A stretch of 64,000 bases of DNA from Fibrobacter sp. UWB16 (GTDB lineage Bacteria; Fibrobacterota; Fibrobacteria; Fibrobacterales; Fibrobacteraceae). The DNA lies in NCBI RefSeq assembly GCF_900215325.1, contig NZ_OCMS01000001.1, positions 1 through 64,000 on the forward strand. The letters run 5' to 3'. The translations under genes were made by a program, and so were the position numbers. The notes beneath the pieces were generated by a model, which saw only the letters and a list, made by a program, of their open reading frames with translations, had not been told where the DNA came from and searched no databases. Shown in pieces: positions 44,421 to 53,325 of this stretch. Every line of letters begins with the position of its first letter. Position 1 is the stretch's first letter.

Positions 44421-44490
44421 GTTTATAATATAACAACATGACCGTCCATAGATTTAATATGGTATAGTAAAATAAAGTAGATACAAGATG

Positions 44491-44519
44491 GCGATCCCGG
44501 AATAAATCCGGGATGACAT
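44491..44519. repeat. Dispersed palindromic repeat (family B)
   Basis: CGATCCCGGAATAAATCCGG followed by GATGACATG, between DUF4419 and the next leftward operon. Confidence 0.7.
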
Positions 44520-44532
44520 GGTCGAAACGGGA

Positions 44533-45024
44533 TTACTTACCGCTCATGATGGCGGCGAGGTCGGCACCACTCAAGTTCGTCTTTTCGTTAAGGGCGGCAA
44601 CGATTGCGGTAAGCGACTTTTGGCAAGCCATCATGAGGTTATAAACTTGTTCGACAACGTTTGTTTCGGCAAGCTGGTAGTAATAGCAAGCCGCCTGAAA
44701 GCTTTGGTAATCGGGATCGCTCCTGTAAAGTTCCATCGGAAGTTCTTTCATAACAGTGTCGAGATCGCAAGCGAAATTTTTGCGGATTAAAAAGTCCGAC
44801 ATATGGCCCGCAATGGCAATGTGGGCAGCACCATCGAGCGAGCTCCCGGGCATGCGCGTGGCACTCGGCTTTTCCTTGGAATTGTTGATTCTGACGTAAT
44901 CAATTTGGCGTTTGAACAGGAAAGCGATTAGAGCGTGGCCCGCCTCGTGGCGGCAAAGTTTTTCATATTCCTGTTCACCGAAAAAATCAATTAAGGTTTC
45001 GCGAGTTAATGTTTGTTCTGACAT
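44533..45024 (-). CDS. Small HEAGH metalloprotein, M41-peptidase-like
   Basis: 163 aa. Contains CRHEAGHALIAFLFKR, the zinc-binding HExxH with the EAGH context of FtsH (M41) peptidases, then PGSSLDGAAHIAIAGHMSDF resembling the M41 helix with the third ligand region. No AAA domain or membrane segment. It may be a stand-alone peptidase or an inactive relative. The gene overlaps the upstream hydrolase gene by 19 nt. Confidence 0.65.
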   Translation of the reverse strand: MSEQTLTRETLIDFFGEQEYEKLCRHEAGHALIAFLFKRQIDYVRINNSKEKPSATRMPGSSLDGAAHIAIAGHMSDFLIRKNFACDLDTVMKELPMELYRSDPDYQSFQAACYYYQLAETNVVEQVYNLMMACQKSLTAIVAALNEKTNLSGADLAAIMSGK

Positions 45025-45614
45025 TTTTCAATCCACCTGTCTAAAAAATCCATCTGTTCGTCGGTATGGAACCAATGTTCGCCGCCTTGCATAATCGTGA
45101 GCGACGCGCCCACTTTTTGAGCAAAATCTCGCATCGTTTCAAGGTTGGTCAAATTGTCATTGGAGCCATACAAAATATGCGTCGGGATATTCCATTCGAT
45201 GGGATTTTCTCGCACGTAGCAAAGGTATTTCCAAGAAAGCGTCTCGCCGAAATTCGTCGCGATTTCGCCTTTTTCGCGAAGTTCATCTTCGGAGACATTC
45301 GCCCACAGCATCATATTGCAAATGAGCTTTTCCAAGTTCACCATCGGAGAAATGAAGAGCGCCTGCTTGATGCATTTTTCGCCCAAAGCGTTCATCGAGA
45401 AGAACGCGCCAATGCTATTTGCGATAAGCACGACTTCGTCGTATTTTGTGGCAATCGAATCAAAGTAAGCCGAGAATTCCTGCTTGGCGTCCCACGGGGT
45501 TTCTGCCTTGTAATCAAAACCGATGACATCAAAATCCGGGAAAAGAGGTTTGTAATGATTGGCCTCGTCGGCGTTACCGCCTTTCCCGTGAATGTAAATA
45601 ACGAGCTTTTTCAT
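45006..45614 (-). CDS. Alpha/beta hydrolase
   Basis: 202 aa serine hydrolase of the small RBBP9/YdeN-like type. Oxyanion region IYIHGKGGNADEA, nucleophile elbow ANSIGAFF (Ser), Asp in LYGSNDNLT and His in GGEHWFH. The elbow A-N-S-I-G is off the usual G-x-S-x-G. Substrate unknown. Operon with the HEAGH protein, start codons and stop overlapping. Confidence 0.8.
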   Translation of the reverse strand: MKKLVIYIHGKGGNADEANHYKPLFPDFDVIGFDYKAETPWDAKQEFSAYFDSIATKYDEVVLIANSIGAFFSMNALGEKCIKQALFISPMVNLEKLICNMMLWANVSEDELREKGEIATNFGETLSWKYLCYVRENPIEWNIPTHILYGSNDNLTNLETMRDFAQKVGASLTIMQGGEHWFHTDEQMDFLDRWIEKCQNKH

Positions 45615-45665: not shown

Positions 45666-46529
45666 TCATTTTACCAAAGCAAGCAACTGTTCCTTGGTCA
45701 CAAGGTTCAGTACCGAAAACGCCGTCATTTTACAGCCTAAATCCATAATCGAAGCCCCAACATGATATACAGTTTCGTCAACAATGATAAATCTGTCGTG
45801 AACATCACGCATTGTCCGCAATACAACAGTCGGAAATTGCCGATTTATGCGGTCAACTTCATCGTTCATCGCACGCGTAATTCGAGCGGAATAAATGACG
45901 GCATTGACACCAGCAACTCGTTTTGCAACAAGCGAAAGCGATGTATCATTAGCAAACGGATCTATGATTATGATTTCTTTTTTCGCGGAGCGAACTAATT
46001 GCACTGCAAATTCATAACCGCTCCAACGAGCATTAGCTGGTATAACGCCCTCGCTAGGTGGAAGATTTGCTTTGACAAAGAAGTCCACCTGTTTTTCAAG
46101 GTTAACAACACGAGAATCCAAATTCTCGAGTTTATTTTCTTGAGAAATCAATCGTTGGTTAACACTATACCCCTTAAGCAAATGCTCTTTGAGAACCTGA
46201 TTTGCCCATCGACGAAATTGTGTACCTTGGATAGATTTTACTCGATACCCGACAGAAATGATGACATCGAGATTGTAGAAATTTGTAGGTTTGGTAGAAA
46301 AATCGGAATTTCCGATTTTTCTTACCGATTCATTTTTCAATATTTCACCCTCAGATAGGGCATTTAATATATGCTCGTTTATAGTTGAACGAGATTTCCC
46401 AAAAAGAAGAGCCATTTGATCAATCGTCAGCCATACTGTTTCGTTTTCAACTCGTACAGGCAACTGAATAGCACCTTCAGGCTGGTACATGATAATTTCA
46501 CCATCTAATGATAAATTCTTCTTATTCAT
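45666..46529 (-). CDS. RhuM-like DNA-binding protein with PLD-like C-terminus
   Basis: 287 aa. N-terminal RhuM-type virulence domain: VWLTIDQMALLFGKSRSTIN with EHILNALSEGEI, FYNLDVIISVGYRVKSIQGT, FRRWANQVLKEHLLKGY. A short coiled linker (ENLDSRVVNLEKQVDFFV) joins a C-terminal domain with WSGYEFAVQLVRSAKKEIII then DPFAND and HDRFIIVDETVYHVGAS, which looks like half of a phospholipase D/nuclease fold with the HxxxxIVD signature. GGAGG Shine-Dalgarno. AT-rich, likely mobile. Such proteins are found in genomic islands; role in defence or virulence unproven. Confidence 0.75.
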   Translation of the reverse strand: MNKKNLSLDGEIIMYQPEGAIQLPVRVENETVWLTIDQMALLFGKSRSTINEHILNALSEGEILKNESVRKIGNSDFSTKPTNFYNLDVIISVGYRVKSIQGTQFRRWANQVLKEHLLKGYSVNQRLISQENKLENLDSRVVNLEKQVDFFVKANLPPSEGVIPANARWSGYEFAVQLVRSAKKEIIIIDPFANDTSLSLVAKRVAGVNAVIYSARITRAMNDEVDRINRQFPTVVLRTMRDVHDRFIIVDETVYHVGASIMDLGCKMTAFSVLNLVTKEQLLALVK

Positions 46530-46630
46530 AATACCTCCAGCCGACTACATACAAAAAAAGACGGCATAAAATCGTTCAAGAATTAAAATAGATTTTAAGA
46601 ATGTCATATTATGACATTGCAGTTTATTTT

Positions 46631-46673
46631 TATAAAAAAAATCCGCCCCTGCGGTGAAGCAGGAAGCGGATTT
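46631..46673 (-). terminator. Terminator of the radical SAM gene; left copy of a 43-bp direct repeat
   Basis: On the minus strand the stem AAATCCGC..GCGGATTT with inner CCTGC/GCAGG and a T7 tail is a strong Rho-independent terminator. The sequence is identical, base for base, to 49311-49353. Confidence 0.9.
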
Positions 46674-46696: not shown

Positions 46697-48157
46697 TTAC
46701 TTGCTTGCGTATGCAGCTTTTGCAGCCATGTCAGATGTCATATATCTGAGATCTTGTATAAGATTCGGATCCTGACCTCCGGACAGCGAAACGGCCTCTT
46801 GCATAACGCGCAAGCCTTCTTCAGCCTGACCGAGCCGATACAAGGCCAAAGCTCGACCACCCATAGCATAAGTGTCCATGCTATTGATGTTCAAAGCCTT
46901 CTCGTTTGCTTCAAGGCACGATTCATAGTTGCCGCACATGAATTCGCTGTAGCCAATAGCCCTGTAAACATCGGCATTATTGGGATCCAGTTCCTGCGCA
47001 CGTTTCAAAGCAAAGGAGGCTTCTTGGTAGTTGCCCTGAGGAATCAACGCTTCGGCCAGCTTGAGCAAAGCAGAAGCACTGTCGCACTTGCCATACTTTG
47101 TTTCCTTTTCCTTTAGAGAAAGGTTGTATGCGCAATATTCATTTTCCTCATAAATGCTACCCTTCATCGTGAGACGCGTATTCGGGCAGCCGCCAAGGCA
47201 CTTGGAACCATAAATGCACTTTTTGCAAGAACCAGAAAGTTTGTCCTTAGTCATCTGGCGACGCCACAAAAATGCGTTTTTATCTTCCCAAATTTCACGC
47301 AACTTTCTTTCGCGGATATTCCCTTCGATGAATTCCTTGGAACGAATCGAAGTACAACCCAAGATATCACCATTATGCAAAATCCCGAAACCACGAATTC
47401 CCGCATTGCAGCCATCCCACAAGGAATAACCATTTGACTTGTAGGACATACGCCTTGTTTCAAGATCCTTCATTGAATAGTATCCAATACAATCCGCAGG
47501 ATAAATATCGATCCTACCCTCTTTTGCCGTATCGTAACAAAAATCAATGATATCCCTGACCTGTCTCGGTTCAAGGAGCCAATCAGGGCGTTCCTTCAAA
47601 TTGCCCATAGGCAAACCAAGTTGAACCTGCCACGTGTCAACGCCCATGCGGATAAGCTCTTCCTTCAATTCCGGAAGATTATCCATATTCTGCTTCGTGA
47701 TAGTCGTGACGGCACCGGTCTTTATTCCCAATTCCTTCATTGCGGCGAAAGCTTGCCTAGCATGTTCAAAGGCACCTTTTTTCCTGATTTTATCATGGAT
47801 TTCAGGCGTTCCGTCAATGCTAATCGCAACCGTGGCAATACCATTCTCTTTTAACTTTTTTGCCATCTTTGCGTCAAGGAGCCAACCGTTCGTGATCATA
47901 TTCACGATAACGCCATTACCAGAAAGACGTTTCACCAATTCAGGCGTATCTTGTCTCGTAAGAGGTTCGCCTCCAGACAAGGTAATCCATTTCAGTCCAA
48001 TATCAGCAATCTGATCACACAAATCAAGAGCTTCCTCGGTGCTCAATTGTCCCGGGAGAGCGCCCTCACAAGAAGAACCACAATGCCCACAGCGAAAGTT
48101 GCAGCCCATCGTTACTTCCCAGACTGCAGTGATGGGCTGATACCCAATATTTGCCAT
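46697..48157 (-). CDS. Radical SAM/SPASM peptide-maturase-like enzyme with C-terminal TPRs
   Basis: 486 aa from the ATG at 48157 (AGAGG 4-5 nt upstream). Residues 15-215: radical SAM barrel with the Cys19-x3-Cys23-x2-Cys26 cluster motif (MGCNFRCGHC), GGE at 62-64, and AISIDGTPEIHDKIRKKGAF. Residues 250-345: SPASM domain with Cys 250, 268, 311, 314, 320, 324 and 342 (CKKCIYGSKCLGGCPNTR), enough for two auxiliary 4Fe-4S clusters. Residues about 355-470: TPR-like repeats (GNYQEASFALKRAQELDPNN, ADVYRAIGYSEFMCG), which could dock a repeat-containing peptide. It lies 69 nt downstream of the repeat-protein gene and shares its RBS style. SPASM enzymes typically modify peptides by C-S or C-C cross-linking; the exact reaction is unknown. 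No N-terminal RRE-like domain is obvious. Confidence 0.88.
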   Translation of the reverse strand: MANIGYQPITAVWEVTMGCNFRCGHCGSSCEGALPGQLSTEEALDLCDQIADIGLKWITLSGGEPLTRQDTPELVKRLSGNGVIVNMITNGWLLDAKMAKKLKENGIATVAISIDGTPEIHDKIRKKGAFEHARQAFAAMKELGIKTGAVTTITKQNMDNLPELKEELIRMGVDTWQVQLGLPMGNLKERPDWLLEPRQVRDIIDFCYDTAKEGRIDIYPADCIGYYSMKDLETRRMSYKSNGYSLWDGCNAGIRGFGILHNGDILGCTSIRSKEFIEGNIRERKLREIWEDKNAFLWRRQMTKDKLSGSCKKCIYGSKCLGGCPNTRLTMKGSIYEENEYCAYNLSLKEKETKYGKCDSASALLKLAEALIPQGNYQEASFALKRAQELDPNNADVYRAIGYSEFMCGNYESCLEANEKALNINSMDTYAMGGRALALYRLGQAEEGLRVMQEAVSLSGGQDPNLIQDLRYMTSDMAAKAAYASK

Positions 48158-48170
48158 AAAAACCTCTAAG

Positions 48171-48201
48171 CAGCCTGCCAGCATTCAAGGCCAGCAGGCT
48201 G
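48171..48201 (-). promoter_or_regulatory. Intercistronic hairpin between precursor and maturase genes
   Basis: CAGCCTGC (48194-48201) / GCAGGCTG (48171-48178) perfect 8-bp stem with 15-nt loop, between stop and Shine-Dalgarno. Not followed by a T run, so more likely mRNA processing, stabilising or partial attenuation, giving more precursor than enzyme. Confidence 0.65.
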
Positions 48202-48226
48202 TTTTTATCATGTATTCTGATTTATT

Positions 48227-49165
48227 TTAACAGTCAGACTTCTGCGAATCGCACTTGAAGCCGTACATAAAAGCAGCGTCTTTTTTCGTTGCTGCATCTT
48301 GAACGCCGCACGGATAGCCGTACTTCAAGGCGGCATCCTGTACTCCGCAGGGATAACCATACTTCAAAGCGACGTCATTTGTACAGTTCTTGTAACCGTA
48401 TGCCATGGCAGCTTCCCTGTTCGATGCAGCATCCTGAACACCGCAAGGATAGCCATACTTCATCAAAGGCAAATCGCAAGGATAACCGTACTTCATCAAA
48501 GGAGCATCATTTGTGCCGCAGGGGTAACCGTACTTCAAAGCGGCTTCTCGATTTGGAGATGCGTCCTGAGCTCCACAAGGATAGCCATACTTCATCAAGG
48601 GTGCATCATTTACACCACAAGGATACCCATACTTCACTACAGGTGCTTCGCTTGTATTGCAAGGATAACCGTACTTCATCAAGGGTGCATCTTGAACGCC
48701 ACAGGGATAGCCATACTTCATCAGGGGAGCATCCTGAACTCCACAAGGATAGCCATACTTCACAACGGCTTCTTGCGAGCCGAGAACAAGGCCATAGGGC
48801 ATTGCAGGGCCGGCAACAGCTCTGATTGTAGCGTCAGAGTTTTCGCTAAATTTTGCAAATTCATCAGAATCGCTCGGAATTACGTTCAACAGCACCGTAT
48901 GCGTCTTTTTCGTAGCGGACATATCCGTAAAGTTAATCAACGTGAATTCAAGTTCAGACTTGTCTTCCGTTGCAGAAACAGCTCCAAACCAGAATCTCTG
49001 GATAACAGGAGCAACCCCTGTTGCTGTTGAGATTGTCTCTGTACTCAGCAGAGCGATGCCCTGCGGAAGTTTGGTCAGAGTCCAACCATAATTTGTGGAA
49101 CCGAACATTGATTGCAGTTCAATCGAGAAGGATTGACCCTGTAATACAACCATTTCTTTTGCCAT
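48227..49165 (-). CDS. Multicore RiPP-precursor-like protein: chagasin-like domain plus KYGYPCG repeats
   Basis: 312 aa. Residues 1-95 resemble a chagasin/I42 cysteine-protease-inhibitor fold (VLQGQSFSIELQSMFGSTN, YGWTLTKLPQGIALLS, FWFGAVSATE, LEFTLINF, THTVLLNVI). Residues 96-122 are a linker. From 123 to 312 the protein is tandem repeats of 11-19 aa: ten have exact KYGYPC (first at 136-141), usually followed by GVQDAPLM or variants, three by a longer form with NREAA or KKDAA, and two degenerate ones AYGYKNC (255-261) and MYGFKC (300-305). Each repeat has one Cys; total about 12 core Cys plus the final Cys312. No signal peptide. RBS AGAGG. This is the upstream partner of the radical SAM enzyme. 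Confidence 0.8.
   Translation of the reverse strand: MAKEMVVLQGQSFSIELQSMFGSTNYGWTLTKLPQGIALLSTETISTATGVAPVIQRFWFGAVSATEDKSELEFTLINFTDMSATKKTHTVLLNVIPSDSDEFAKFSENSDATIRAVAGPAMPYGLVLGSQEAVVKYGYPCGVQDAPLMKYGYPCGVQDAPLMKYGYPCNTSEAPVVKYGYPCGVNDAPLMKYGYPCGAQDASPNREAALKYGYPCGTNDAPLMKYGYPCDLPLMKYGYPCGVQDAASNREAAMAYGYKNCTNDVALKYGYPCGVQDAALKYGYPCGVQDAATKKDAAFMYGFKCDSQKSDC
48230..48760 (-). repeat. KYGYPCG-coding tandem repeat array
   Basis: About twelve DNA units, basic length 42 nt (14 codons), with in-frame variants of 33, 39 and 57 nt. Codons differ between copies (for example GGATAGCC versus GGATAACC in the GYP codons) while KYGYPC is kept, which suggests selection at protein level. Confidence 0.85.
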
Positions 49166-49310: not shown

Positions 49311-49353
49311 TATAAAAAAAATCCGCCCCTGCGGTGAAGCAGGAAGCGGATTT
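49311..49353 (-). terminator. Terminator of purL; right copy of the 43-bp direct repeat
   Basis: Identical to 46631-46673. It ends purL transcription and insulates the cassette downstream. Confidence 0.9.
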
Positions 49354-49367
49354 TTCAAACGTGTAAG

Positions 49368-49441
49368 GCGATCCCGGCACAAGGCCGGGATGACGGCCAT
49401 GATGACTCAATGCACACCCGGCACAAGGCCGGGATGACATG
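49368..49441. repeat. Dispersed palindromic repeat (family B), two tandem copies
   Basis: CGATCCCGGCACAAGGCCGG then GATGAC, followed after 35 nt by ACCCGGCACAAGGCCGGGAT then GACA. Confidence 0.75.
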
Positions 49442-49449
49442 CAAGGGGA

Positions 49450-52400
49450 TTACCCTACGAATATACGACCGTTGCGGAACAGCTGCATCCACGGGCCATC
49501 TTCACCCCATTCTGCCGGGTGCCAAGAGTATTGGCAGGTGCGGAACACGCGTTCCGGGTGCGGCATCATCACGAGGGCGCGGCCGTCTTCAGAGCAGAGG
49601 CCGTTGATGCCAAACGGGGAGCCGTTCGGGTTGAGCGGGTAGCGTTCGGTGTATTCGTGCTTGCCATCCACATAGCGGAGCGCCACGAGACCGGTCTTGA
49701 GGCAGGCTTCGGCAGCTTCGCGGCTTGCGAATTCAGCACGGCCTTCACCGTGAGCAACAGCGATCGGGAGGACAGAACCTGCCATGCCCTTGAGGAGCAC
49801 TGCCGGCGTATCTTCGACCTTCAAAGAGCAGTAGCGAGCTTCGAAGCGTTCGGAGATGTTCTGCACAAAGCGCGGCCAGTGCTTAGCGCCCGGAATCAAA
49901 TCCTTGAGGTTCGAGACCATCTGGCAACCGTTGCAAACGCCGAGCGTGAAGGTATCCTTGCGGTTGAAGTAAGCTTCGAATTCAGCGCGAGCCTTCGGGT
50001 TGAACAAGATGCTCTTGGCCCAGCCTTCGCCTGCACCGAGAACGTCACCGTAGCTAAAGCCACCGCAAGCAACGAGACCGTTGAAGTCCTTGAGGCTTAC
50101 GCGACCGGAGAGGATGTCCGTCATGTGAACGTCGATAGATTCGAAGCCAGCCTTTGCAAATGCGGCAGCCATTTCGAGTTCGCCATTGACACCCTGTTCA
50201 CGAAGTATTGCCATCTTCGGGCGGCTTGCGTAATCCTTGATGACCTTGGCGCTAGCAGCGAGATCGAACGTGACCTTCGGCGTGATACCCGGATCGTCCT
50301 GTTCGAGCTTGAGCTTGTATTCGCTTTCGGCACATTCCGGATTGTCACGGAGGGCGGCAATGCGGCGAGTCGTATCACTCCAGATGGCGCGCAGGTCAGA
50401 GAGGCCTTCGGTGTAGTCGCCAATCACAATGTTATACGTATCGTTAAGCTTACCGATTTCAGAAACGGTATCGCCGAGACCGACAGCTTCGAAAGCAGCC
50501 TTCACAGCAGCGAGGTCTGCGTTTGCAACCTGGAGGACGGCGCCGAGTTCTTCGTTGAACAAAGCGTCAATCACATTGCCCTTGAGAGCTGTAGCGTCGA
50601 GCGTTACGCCCACGTGACCGGCAAATGCCATTTCGACAACCGTCGTGAAGAGGCCGCCATCGCTCTTATCGTGGTAAGCCATAATCTTGCCATCGGCATT
50701 GAGCTTCTGGATGGTTTCGAAGAAGGCGCGAAGTTCCTTAGCGGAATCGACATCCGGAGCCTTGTCACCGAGGAGGTTGTAAACCTGAGCGGCAATGGAT
50801 GCGCCCATACGGTTCTTGCCACGAGCGAGGTCCACGAGCACAAGCGTCGTATCCTTCTTCTGCAAGAGCTGCGGCGTGAGCGTCTTGCGCACGTCGGCAC
50901 ACGGAGCAAAGGCACTAATCACAAGAGAAATCGGAGCGGTCACGCGGTGGCTACCCTTTTCGTCCTGCCACACAGTGCTCATGCTCATGGAGTCCTTACC
51001 GACCGGAATCGTAATGCCAAGTTCCGGGCAAAGTTCCATACCGATGGACTTCACGGCTTCGTACAAGTCAGCGCCATCACCTTCGTAGTTCGGCGTTGCC
51101 ATCCAGTTTGCGGACAAGTTTACGCGGCCCATATCCGGGACGCAAGCGGCAGCCATGTTCGTGAGGGATTCAGCAACCGTCATACGAGCTGCAGCAGCCG
51201 GAGAAATGAGAGCAATCGGAGCGCGTTCGCCCATACTCATGACTTCGCCTTCGTACGTGTCGAGCGTTGCACTCGTCACGGCGCAGTCAGCAACCGGCAC
51301 CTGCCACGGACCAACCATCTGGTCACGGCAAATCATACCCGTCACGGAACGGTCACCAATGGAAATCAAGAACGTCTTATCTGCAACGGTCGGGTTAGCA
51401 AGCACGCGATGTGCAAGTTCCTTCACCGTCACACCAGCCGGCACCACCTGAGAAGAGAGCGGGCGCTTCTGGGACTTTTCATTGCGGATCATGCGAGGCG
51501 GCTTGCCGAGGAGAACGCCGAGCGGCATGTCAATCGGAGTCGTACCGAAGTGCTTGTCTGTAAGGGTCAAGTGCTTTTCAGGGATTGCCTCGCCCACCAC
51601 GGCGTACGGGCAGCGTTCACGCTTACAGATAGCGTCGAACACATCGAGCTTGTCACCAGCAATTGCGATAACATAACGTTCCTGGGATTCGTTACTCCAA
51701 ATTTCGAACGGGCTCATGCCCGGTTCGTCATTCGGCACGTTGCGGAGTTCAAACTTACCGCCGAGGCCGCCATCGTTCACGAGTTCCGGGAAGGCGTTCG
51801 AAAGTCCACCTGCACCCACGTCATGAATAAACGTAATCGGGTTTTCTTCGTTCATCGCCCAGCAGCGGTCGATGACTTCCTGGCAGCGGCGTTCCATTTC
51901 CGGGTTTTCACGCTGCACAGAAGCAAAGTCGAGAGATTCATTACCGGCACCGTTAGCAACAGAGCTAGCTGCACCGCCACCAAGACCGATCAACATGGCC
52001 GGACCACCAAGAACGATCAAGTGGTCACCCGGGTCGATGTGGCCCTTTTCAATGTGCTGGTGCTTGATGTTGCCAAGACCGCCAGCAAGCATAATCGGTT
52101 TGTGGTAACCACGAACTTCAGTACCCTTTTCAGAAGAAACTTCCTGTTCGAACGTACGGAAGTAACCGAGGATGTTCGGACGACCGTATTCGTTGTTGAA
52201 TGCGGCACCACCGAGCGGGCCGTCAATCATAATGTCGAGAGCAGAAGCGATGCGGGACGGGCTACCAAAGTCCTTTTCCCACGGCTGAACTGCACCCGGA
52301 AGCTTGAGGTTTGAAACGCTGAAGCCCGTAAGGCCAGCCTTCGGCTTGGAACCCTTACCCGTTGCACCTTCGTCACGGATTTCACCACCACTACCCGTAG

Positions 52401-53325
52401 CGGCACCCGGGAACGGAGAAATCGCCGTCGGGTGGTTGTGGGTTTCGACCTTCATGAGGATATCGACTTCTTCGTTGTGGAAGTCGTACTTGTTGTTGCG
52501 CGGGTCAGCGTAGAAACGGCCAGCCGTTGCACCCTTCATCACAGCGGCGTTATCCTTGTAAGCGCTGAAGATGTTGGAATTGTGGAGCTGGTAAGTGTTC
52601 TTGATCATCTGGAACAAGGACTTGTCCTGCTTCACGCCATCGATGGTCCATTCGGCACCGAACACCTTGTGGCGGCAGTGTTCCGAGTTTGCCTGCGCGA
52701 ACATGTAAAGTTCCACGTCGGTCGGATTGCGCTTGAGTTCGGTGAAGTTCTTGACGAGGTAATCGATTTCGTCCGGAGAAAGAGCGAGGCCCATTTCCTT
52801 GTCGGCCTTCACGAGGGCGTCGCGGCCTTCGGTAAGCACCGGAATCACGTTCAGCGGACGCGGTTCTTCCTTGCTGAAGAGCACTTCGAGGGAAGCGGTG
52901 TCAGCAAACACGGCCTGAGTCATGCGGTCGTGAATCTTGGCAGAAACCTTTTCGCGGGCACCGGCGGGAGCAGCACCTTCAAACTTCACGTAGTAAGCAA
53001 TGGCGCGTTCGATGCGCTTGATTGCCGGGAGGCCGCAAATGTGAGCGATATCGGTAGCCTTCGAGCTCCACGGGCTGATTGTACCCGGACGCGGGCAGAC
53101 CACAAAGAGTTCACCTTCGAGCGCCTTGACTTCGCGCATCGGGCCGTAATGAAGGACCTTTTCGAGCGTTTCCTTTTCGGAAGCGGTCAGGTCGGCGGAC
53201 AGATCCACCACATGGAGGAATTCGGCATACACAGATGCAACCGGAATCCCAGCGGCCTTAAAATCAGATGAAAGCTTTTGCAGACGGAAATCCGACAGAG
53301 CCGGAGTACCACGAAGAATGAGCAT
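49450..53325 (-). CDS. purL: Phosphoribosylformylglycinamidine synthase, single-chain
   Basis: 1291 aa, the large gamma-proteobacterial/eukaryotic-type FGAM synthase (step 4 of purine synthesis). N-terminal PurS-like region, then ATP-grasp-like/AIRS domains ([87 protein letters not shown]). C-terminal class I glutaminase with [12 protein letters not shown] (Cys), HGEGRAEF and MPHPERVFR (His, Glu). TATATTTG promoter element 34 nt before the ATG. Confidence 0.96.

Follow-up and report, generated by a model that had tools for sequence, protein, structure and literature searches.

Integrase-free hot spots, in which variable genes lie beside a core gene with no mobile element and with recombination tracts in the core gene, are the model set out in the portion of a 2017 study on which we draw here (PMC5635113). 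As far as that portion describes them, the 3′ side of purL in Fibrobacter is similar: different accessory genes occur at the same place in relatives, the insert is devoid of an integrase or transposase, and recombination tracts are found in the flanking purL (G065, G088). It differs from the hot spots so described in its junction, which lies in a duplicated intrinsic terminator and not in a second core gene. With att-flanked islands (ICEs, satellites, tRNA-type sites), the purL site has in common the direct repeats at both ends, a single-copy empty site and the location at a gene 3′ end, but the cassette measures 2.6 kb, lacks an integrase, and its repeats vary in length and sequence among carriers. 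The cargo is reminiscent of the radical SAM/SPASM peptide-maturation pairs in NCBIfam (nif11-class, GDL-motif), where a small precursor-like gene is followed by the enzyme; unlike in those pairs, the enzyme described here scores far below the listed cut-offs and the repeat protein has no NCBIfam family.

The hot spot is a clear case of a known kind, and the unusual part is the scar it bears, the duplicated terminator. A duplicated resident terminator would be a readable scar of gene turnover at integrase-free hot spots, and it would allow foreign genes to be exchanged without disturbing the transcription of their neighbours. If general, duplicated core-gene terminators would reveal small transferred cassettes missed by integrase-based surveys. 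Literature searches on Fibrobacter (horizontal gene transfer, genomic islands, purL), on terminators as attB or in target-site duplication, and on hot spots showed no such case among the papers listed, nor did one on Fibrobacter with radical SAM and RiPP, which does not prove that it is unpublished.

Two identical hairpins flank a gene pair

The window, i.e., the whole stretch of 64,000 nucleotides that was analysed, lies in a contig of 1.33 Mb; its genome, that of a rumen Fibrobacter and termed G000, comprises 3,555,739 bases in 9 contigs. The preliminary description of this DNA had reported an identical 43-bp pair with differing bases outside, one copy after the radical SAM gene and the other after purL, and the sequence bears this out in each respect. 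The two copies, T_P and T_R (Table 1), are identical at 43 of 43 positions, and the repeat is maximal, the adjoining bases being different (T/C before, A/T after). They are 2680 bp apart from start to start, with 2637 bp between them; T_R follows the radical SAM gene, and T_P is located between purL and the repeat-protein gene. Both consist of a GC-rich stem and then a T run downstream of a gene and are predicted to be intrinsic terminators on the minus strand (minimum free energy −21.1 kcal/mol, z −5.4).

Allowing up to three mismatches, no copies other than T_P and T_R exist in the window, and none of 100 dinucleotide-preserving shuffles of it gave a match (chance expectation nil). The same two places were the only ones found in the whole genome, both with a 36-mer at up to three mismatches and with a covariance model of the hairpin at E ≤ 1e-3. 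The possibility, raised beforehand, that this hairpin ends many unrelated genes of the genome has thus been checked and dropped, and with two copies only, a common repeat is ruled out. Scans of the window for Rfam families and tRNAs yielded no match.

Table 1. Features around the duplicated terminator, with positions in the window.
Feature	Position	Strand	Evidence
Conserved far anchor: alpha/beta hydrolase (45006-45614) and 163-aa gene (44533-45024)	44533..45614	-	
RhuM-domain gene, outer neighbour	45666..46529	-	Directly after single terminator in G054, G061, G072
T_R, second hairpin copy, now ends radical SAM gene, 43 bp	46631..46673	-	63.2 bits (model from purL-side copies only, yet containing T_P, identical to T_R); fold
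Radical SAM/SPASM enzyme with C-terminal TPR	46697..48184	-	Domain search
312-aa repeat protein, weakly chagasin/I42-like N-terminal region and 10 YGYPC repeats	48227..49165	-	PF09394 E 0.016, below cut-off
T_P, purL-side copy of purL terminator hairpin, 43 bp	49311..49353	-	Single-copy homologue after purL in 17 cargo-free loci; 71.9 bits
Two copies of short REP-like repeat, purL-to-terminator interval	49367..49438	-	Sequence repeats
purL, phosphoribosylformylglycinamidine synthase, core gene upstream of insertion	49450..53325	-	NF003672, TIGR01735

GC-rich short repeats of the REP-like kind occur at 44490-44517, 49367-49394 and 49411-49438, and comparable ones surround purL in relatives; such repeats could possibly provide extra homology for recombination. 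A palindromic AATGTCATATTATGACATT at 46600-46620, upstream of the RhuM gene, is kept in G054, G061 and G072 and is a possible operator.

The hairpin is the terminator of purL

The genus set comprised 80 genomes, in 14 of which the purL C-terminal end was not matched. The purL 3′ regions of 64 loci (63 relatives and the window's own) were read, matches that end at contig ends being left out. The hairpin family follows purL in 24 of these 64 loci, as a single copy in 17 and doubled in seven; weak hairpins in G077 (26.5 bits) and G070 (21.2 bits) were left out of the carrier count. The covariance model was built from 19 purL-side copies only, five of which are from cassette carriers, T_P included. 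Run with stricter filters on all 80 genomes (E ≤ 1e-3), it matched 33 places in 24 genomes, all but three at purL. The three exceptions are in contig 75 of G088 (47.5 bits) and, weakly (about 35 bits), in G042 and G046. Since nearly all matches are at purL, the hairpin is purL's own terminator and neither a common repeat nor a part of the cassette.

All seven double-hairpin loci enclose one of two cargoes, described below, and the 17 single-hairpin loci all lack either cargo at purL; Fisher tests (p 3e-6 and 0.008) take no account of shared ancestry; as the events are not independent, these tests are descriptive only. Each locus (about 3.5 kb in most cases, longer in some) was also scanned by fuzzy matching for another copy of the hairpin, of any type, that comes after its purL. 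Such a copy was found in G000, G109, G049, G065, G088 and G091 only; the scan missed the one in G067, which the covariance model detected, while a fuzzy match at 14.6 kb in G040 was set aside, as the model lent it no support. Within these stretches, second copies exist at cargo-bearing loci only, and a general doubling of purL terminators is rejected.

Within a locus, the two copies are identical in G000 and 3-8 edits apart in the six other two-copy loci. Distances within genomes (0-8 edits) overlap with those between genomes (1-8), so a recent duplication cannot be read from exact identity, and that reading is rejected. Indeed, G109 has the same insertion as the window and its copies differ by 4 edits; identity, therefore, does not imply a recent insertion. 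In G000, it reflects either slow change or conversion.

Two cargoes and their empty sites

Cargo A, the gene pair of the window (repeat protein and radical SAM/SPASM enzyme), is located between double hairpins in G000, G109, G049, G065 and G088. In G067 and G091, the double hairpin encloses cargo B, which is unrelated and consists of one gene; its product, of 305-307 amino acids, is Ser-rich and lipoprotein-like. In the enzyme tree, for which 22 of 41 non-Fibrobacter loci were taken in, the purL-site cassettes constitute one clade; because the five enzymes group in this way, cargo A may have arrived at purL just once. Cargo B may stand for a second event.

The preliminary description had proposed integration of the cassette at or next to the purL terminator, with duplication of the latter, or else loss of the locus by recombination between the copies, and predicted that an empty site in related genomes would have a single copy. 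The purL downstream regions of relatives agree with its main reading: G054, G061 and G072 are cassette-free, and in each of them a single hairpin separates purL from the RhuM gene. Loss between the copies would leave an empty site of this same form. The flank outside T_R in G000 matches these three at 119/142, 122/147 and 130/151 positions, respectively, with none of 200 shuffles as good, while the flank inside T_P has no match there. For cargo B, G087 is the empty counterpart of the carrier G091, the outer flanks of which match at 141/158 and 56/59 positions. Weaker outer-flank matches pair G088 with G046 (2 of 200 shuffles as good) and G049 with G087 (1 of 200); in both pairs, the next gene family is in common. 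No empty counterpart for G065 was found among the purL loci read. The single-hairpin empty sites for both cargoes imply that the cassette is an insertion at a purL terminator that has been duplicated. Any given empty site may be ancestral or may have arisen by deletion.

A turnover hot spot with mosaic purL ends

The 3′ side of purL is a hot spot of gene turnover. What separates the purL hairpin from the hydrolase/163-aa pair varies among relatives and includes at least a RhuM gene, DUF4419, fam23 and a three-gene block; in G040, G075 and G094, there is nothing, and the anchor directly follows the terminator. In G102, this place is taken by a fibro-slime-like gene, named by resemblance. Among the carriers, T_R is followed by four different neighbours: RhuM, DUF4419, the three-gene block, and a 104-aa ORF plus fam23.

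In two carriers, purL itself is mosaic. Over its final ~1.3 kb (L143, 2231-3526), the purL of G088 is 93-94% like that of G026, G048 and G051 but 87-88% like that of most of its cassette-bearing relatives; the last 375 bp in G065 (L166, 3650-4024) resemble G072 at 93% and the others mostly at 84-91%. A foreign-looking purL 3′ end was not seen in G000, G109 and G049. The purL ends of G065 and G088 are 87.5% identical, against 95.8% for the DNA of their enzymes, so that purL end and cassette have not moved together between these two. As judged by eye, the second hairpin in G065 and G067 has a purL-type linker and REP-like repeat in front of it, so that the duplicated stretch is longer there; compared with the first copy, the second one is in both genomes closer to cassette-free purL hairpins. 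The sequences suggest that in some lineages the incoming DNA was placed upstream of the resident hairpin, and in others downstream of it.

How the cassette may have come to lie at purL

We consider it probable that the purL terminator was duplicated on the arrival of a horizontally acquired two-gene cassette, at a turnover hot spot where exchange takes place by homologous recombination. The cassette would have been placed exactly between the intrinsic terminator of purL and the next gene, resulting in the order purL - T_P - repeat-protein gene - radical SAM gene - T_R - old neighbour. From its position and fold, T_R would now end the cassette transcript before the next gene. Cassettes would be exchanged by ordinary homologous recombination at the purL 3′ side, with one crossover in purL or the REP-like flank and the other in the terminator hairpin. 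The mosaic purL ends and the variable repeat length favour such recombination with one junction in the hairpin; the crossover itself was not directly observed. The cassette consists of two genes only, with no recombinase among them, and a ComEC-type competence gene is present in the genome. A stretch of 43 bp is short for RecA-mediated exchange. Somewhat speculatively, and in our estimate improbably, the purL hairpin could act as a recombination handle by which a cargo flanked by two copies leaves hairpin-joined and re-enters any strain with a purL hairpin, integrase-free.

A possible, though less likely, history is one of loss, in which the clade ancestor had purL, cassette and neighbour separated by two terminators, and the empty sites stem from hairpin-by-hairpin recombination. 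Pure deletion between terminators would give exactly the empty sites observed, and the single clade of purL-site cassettes fits this history, as does the third-position identity of the enzymes among carriers (80-89%), which is about that of purL (mostly 78-92%, codons 1-860), as in a long-resident gene. Cargo A carriers, however, make up 5 of the 24 hairpin-bearing loci, and their outer neighbours differ, for which more than deletion is needed. The purL tree does not order the events: carriers and non-carriers are mixed on it, one of 10 inner branches is starred, and with such poor support, gain and loss are not placed in sequence. The first insertion that loss requires also overlaps with the homologous-recombination explanation.

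Site-specific integration, with the hairpin as an att site into which a recombinase acting in trans inserts a cassette circle, leaving attL and attR, is in our view unlikely. Two cargoes, precise hairpin junctions and single-copy empty sites do amount to the anatomy of an att-flanked islet, and the genome has four tyrosine-recombinase domains. Yet the nearest of these on the same contig is >33 kb from purL, and the interval from the hydrolase to purL contains no recombinase gene. The duplicated stretch, moreover, is not constant, since it extends into the upstream REP-like flank in G067 and comes with a purL-type flank at the second copy in G065 (by eye), and the copies have diverged in six of seven loci. 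The repeat protein has no match in phage and plasmid collections, nor the enzyme in viral contigs.

That the cassette brought its own terminator, matching that of purL by chance, is very improbable, even if cassettes need one and Fibrobacter terminators have A/T-rich ends in common. T_P and T_R are identical also in loop and tail, and the hairpin is linked to purL across the genus. Where cargo A occurs away from purL (G085, G067, G070, G094, G082), it ends in unrelated hairpins in five of five cases, and the covariance model detected no purL-type hairpin at these loci (E ≤ 0.01). It likewise found none at 41 non-Fibrobacter loci with a homologous enzyme at that threshold (best 25.2 bits, E 0.026), and a terminator travelling with the cassette is ruled out. 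Direct repeats can confuse assemblers, but an assembly artefact is very unlikely with the same order and diverged copies in four other assemblies and a window contig of this length. We retain homologous recombination at the purL terminator as the preferred explanation.

The gene pair

The pair at 46697-49165 is widespread and unnamed, with occurrences in Lachnospiraceae, Bacteroides and Fibrobacter. Among the best 25 curated NCBIfam families listed, the enzyme scores far below every cut-off (best TIGR04103, 229 versus 725 bits). Its true start may be a later ATG near 48157, as homologues align from about residue 8-10. Relatives are found in Butyrivibrio (80-82% identity), other Lachnospiraceae, Bacteroides and Thiodiazotropha, and their neighbour is often a protein that shares the N-terminal region of the repeat protein and has repeats of the YGYPC type; in many Lachnospiraceae loci, this architecture lies upstream of the homologous enzyme. 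A quick tree grouped the ten Fibrobacter enzymes (SH-aLRT 96), nested among those of rumen and gut Lachnospiraceae, which points to transfer between phyla. We propose that the repeat protein is a multi-core peptide precursor, and the pair would be a candidate peptide-modification system. Literature searches found neither chagasin and radical SAM together nor the YGYPCG motif.

Other hairpins and purL ends

Three further arrangements were noted by eye. In G088, a purL-type hairpin follows an smc gene (L137, around 2100-2200) and is itself followed by a leader like that after the purL hairpin of G102, as if hairpin and module had moved together. In some relatives (L076, L124, L123 and L121), a partial repeat of the last codons of purL occurs after the stop codon. 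In several others (L086, L088, L084, L083 and L091), purL ends in ...FVAEKG, and then comes a conserved stretch of ~90 bp with a hairpin; this stretch closes with what is left of the regular purL end and looks like a small inserted element replacing the last purL codons.
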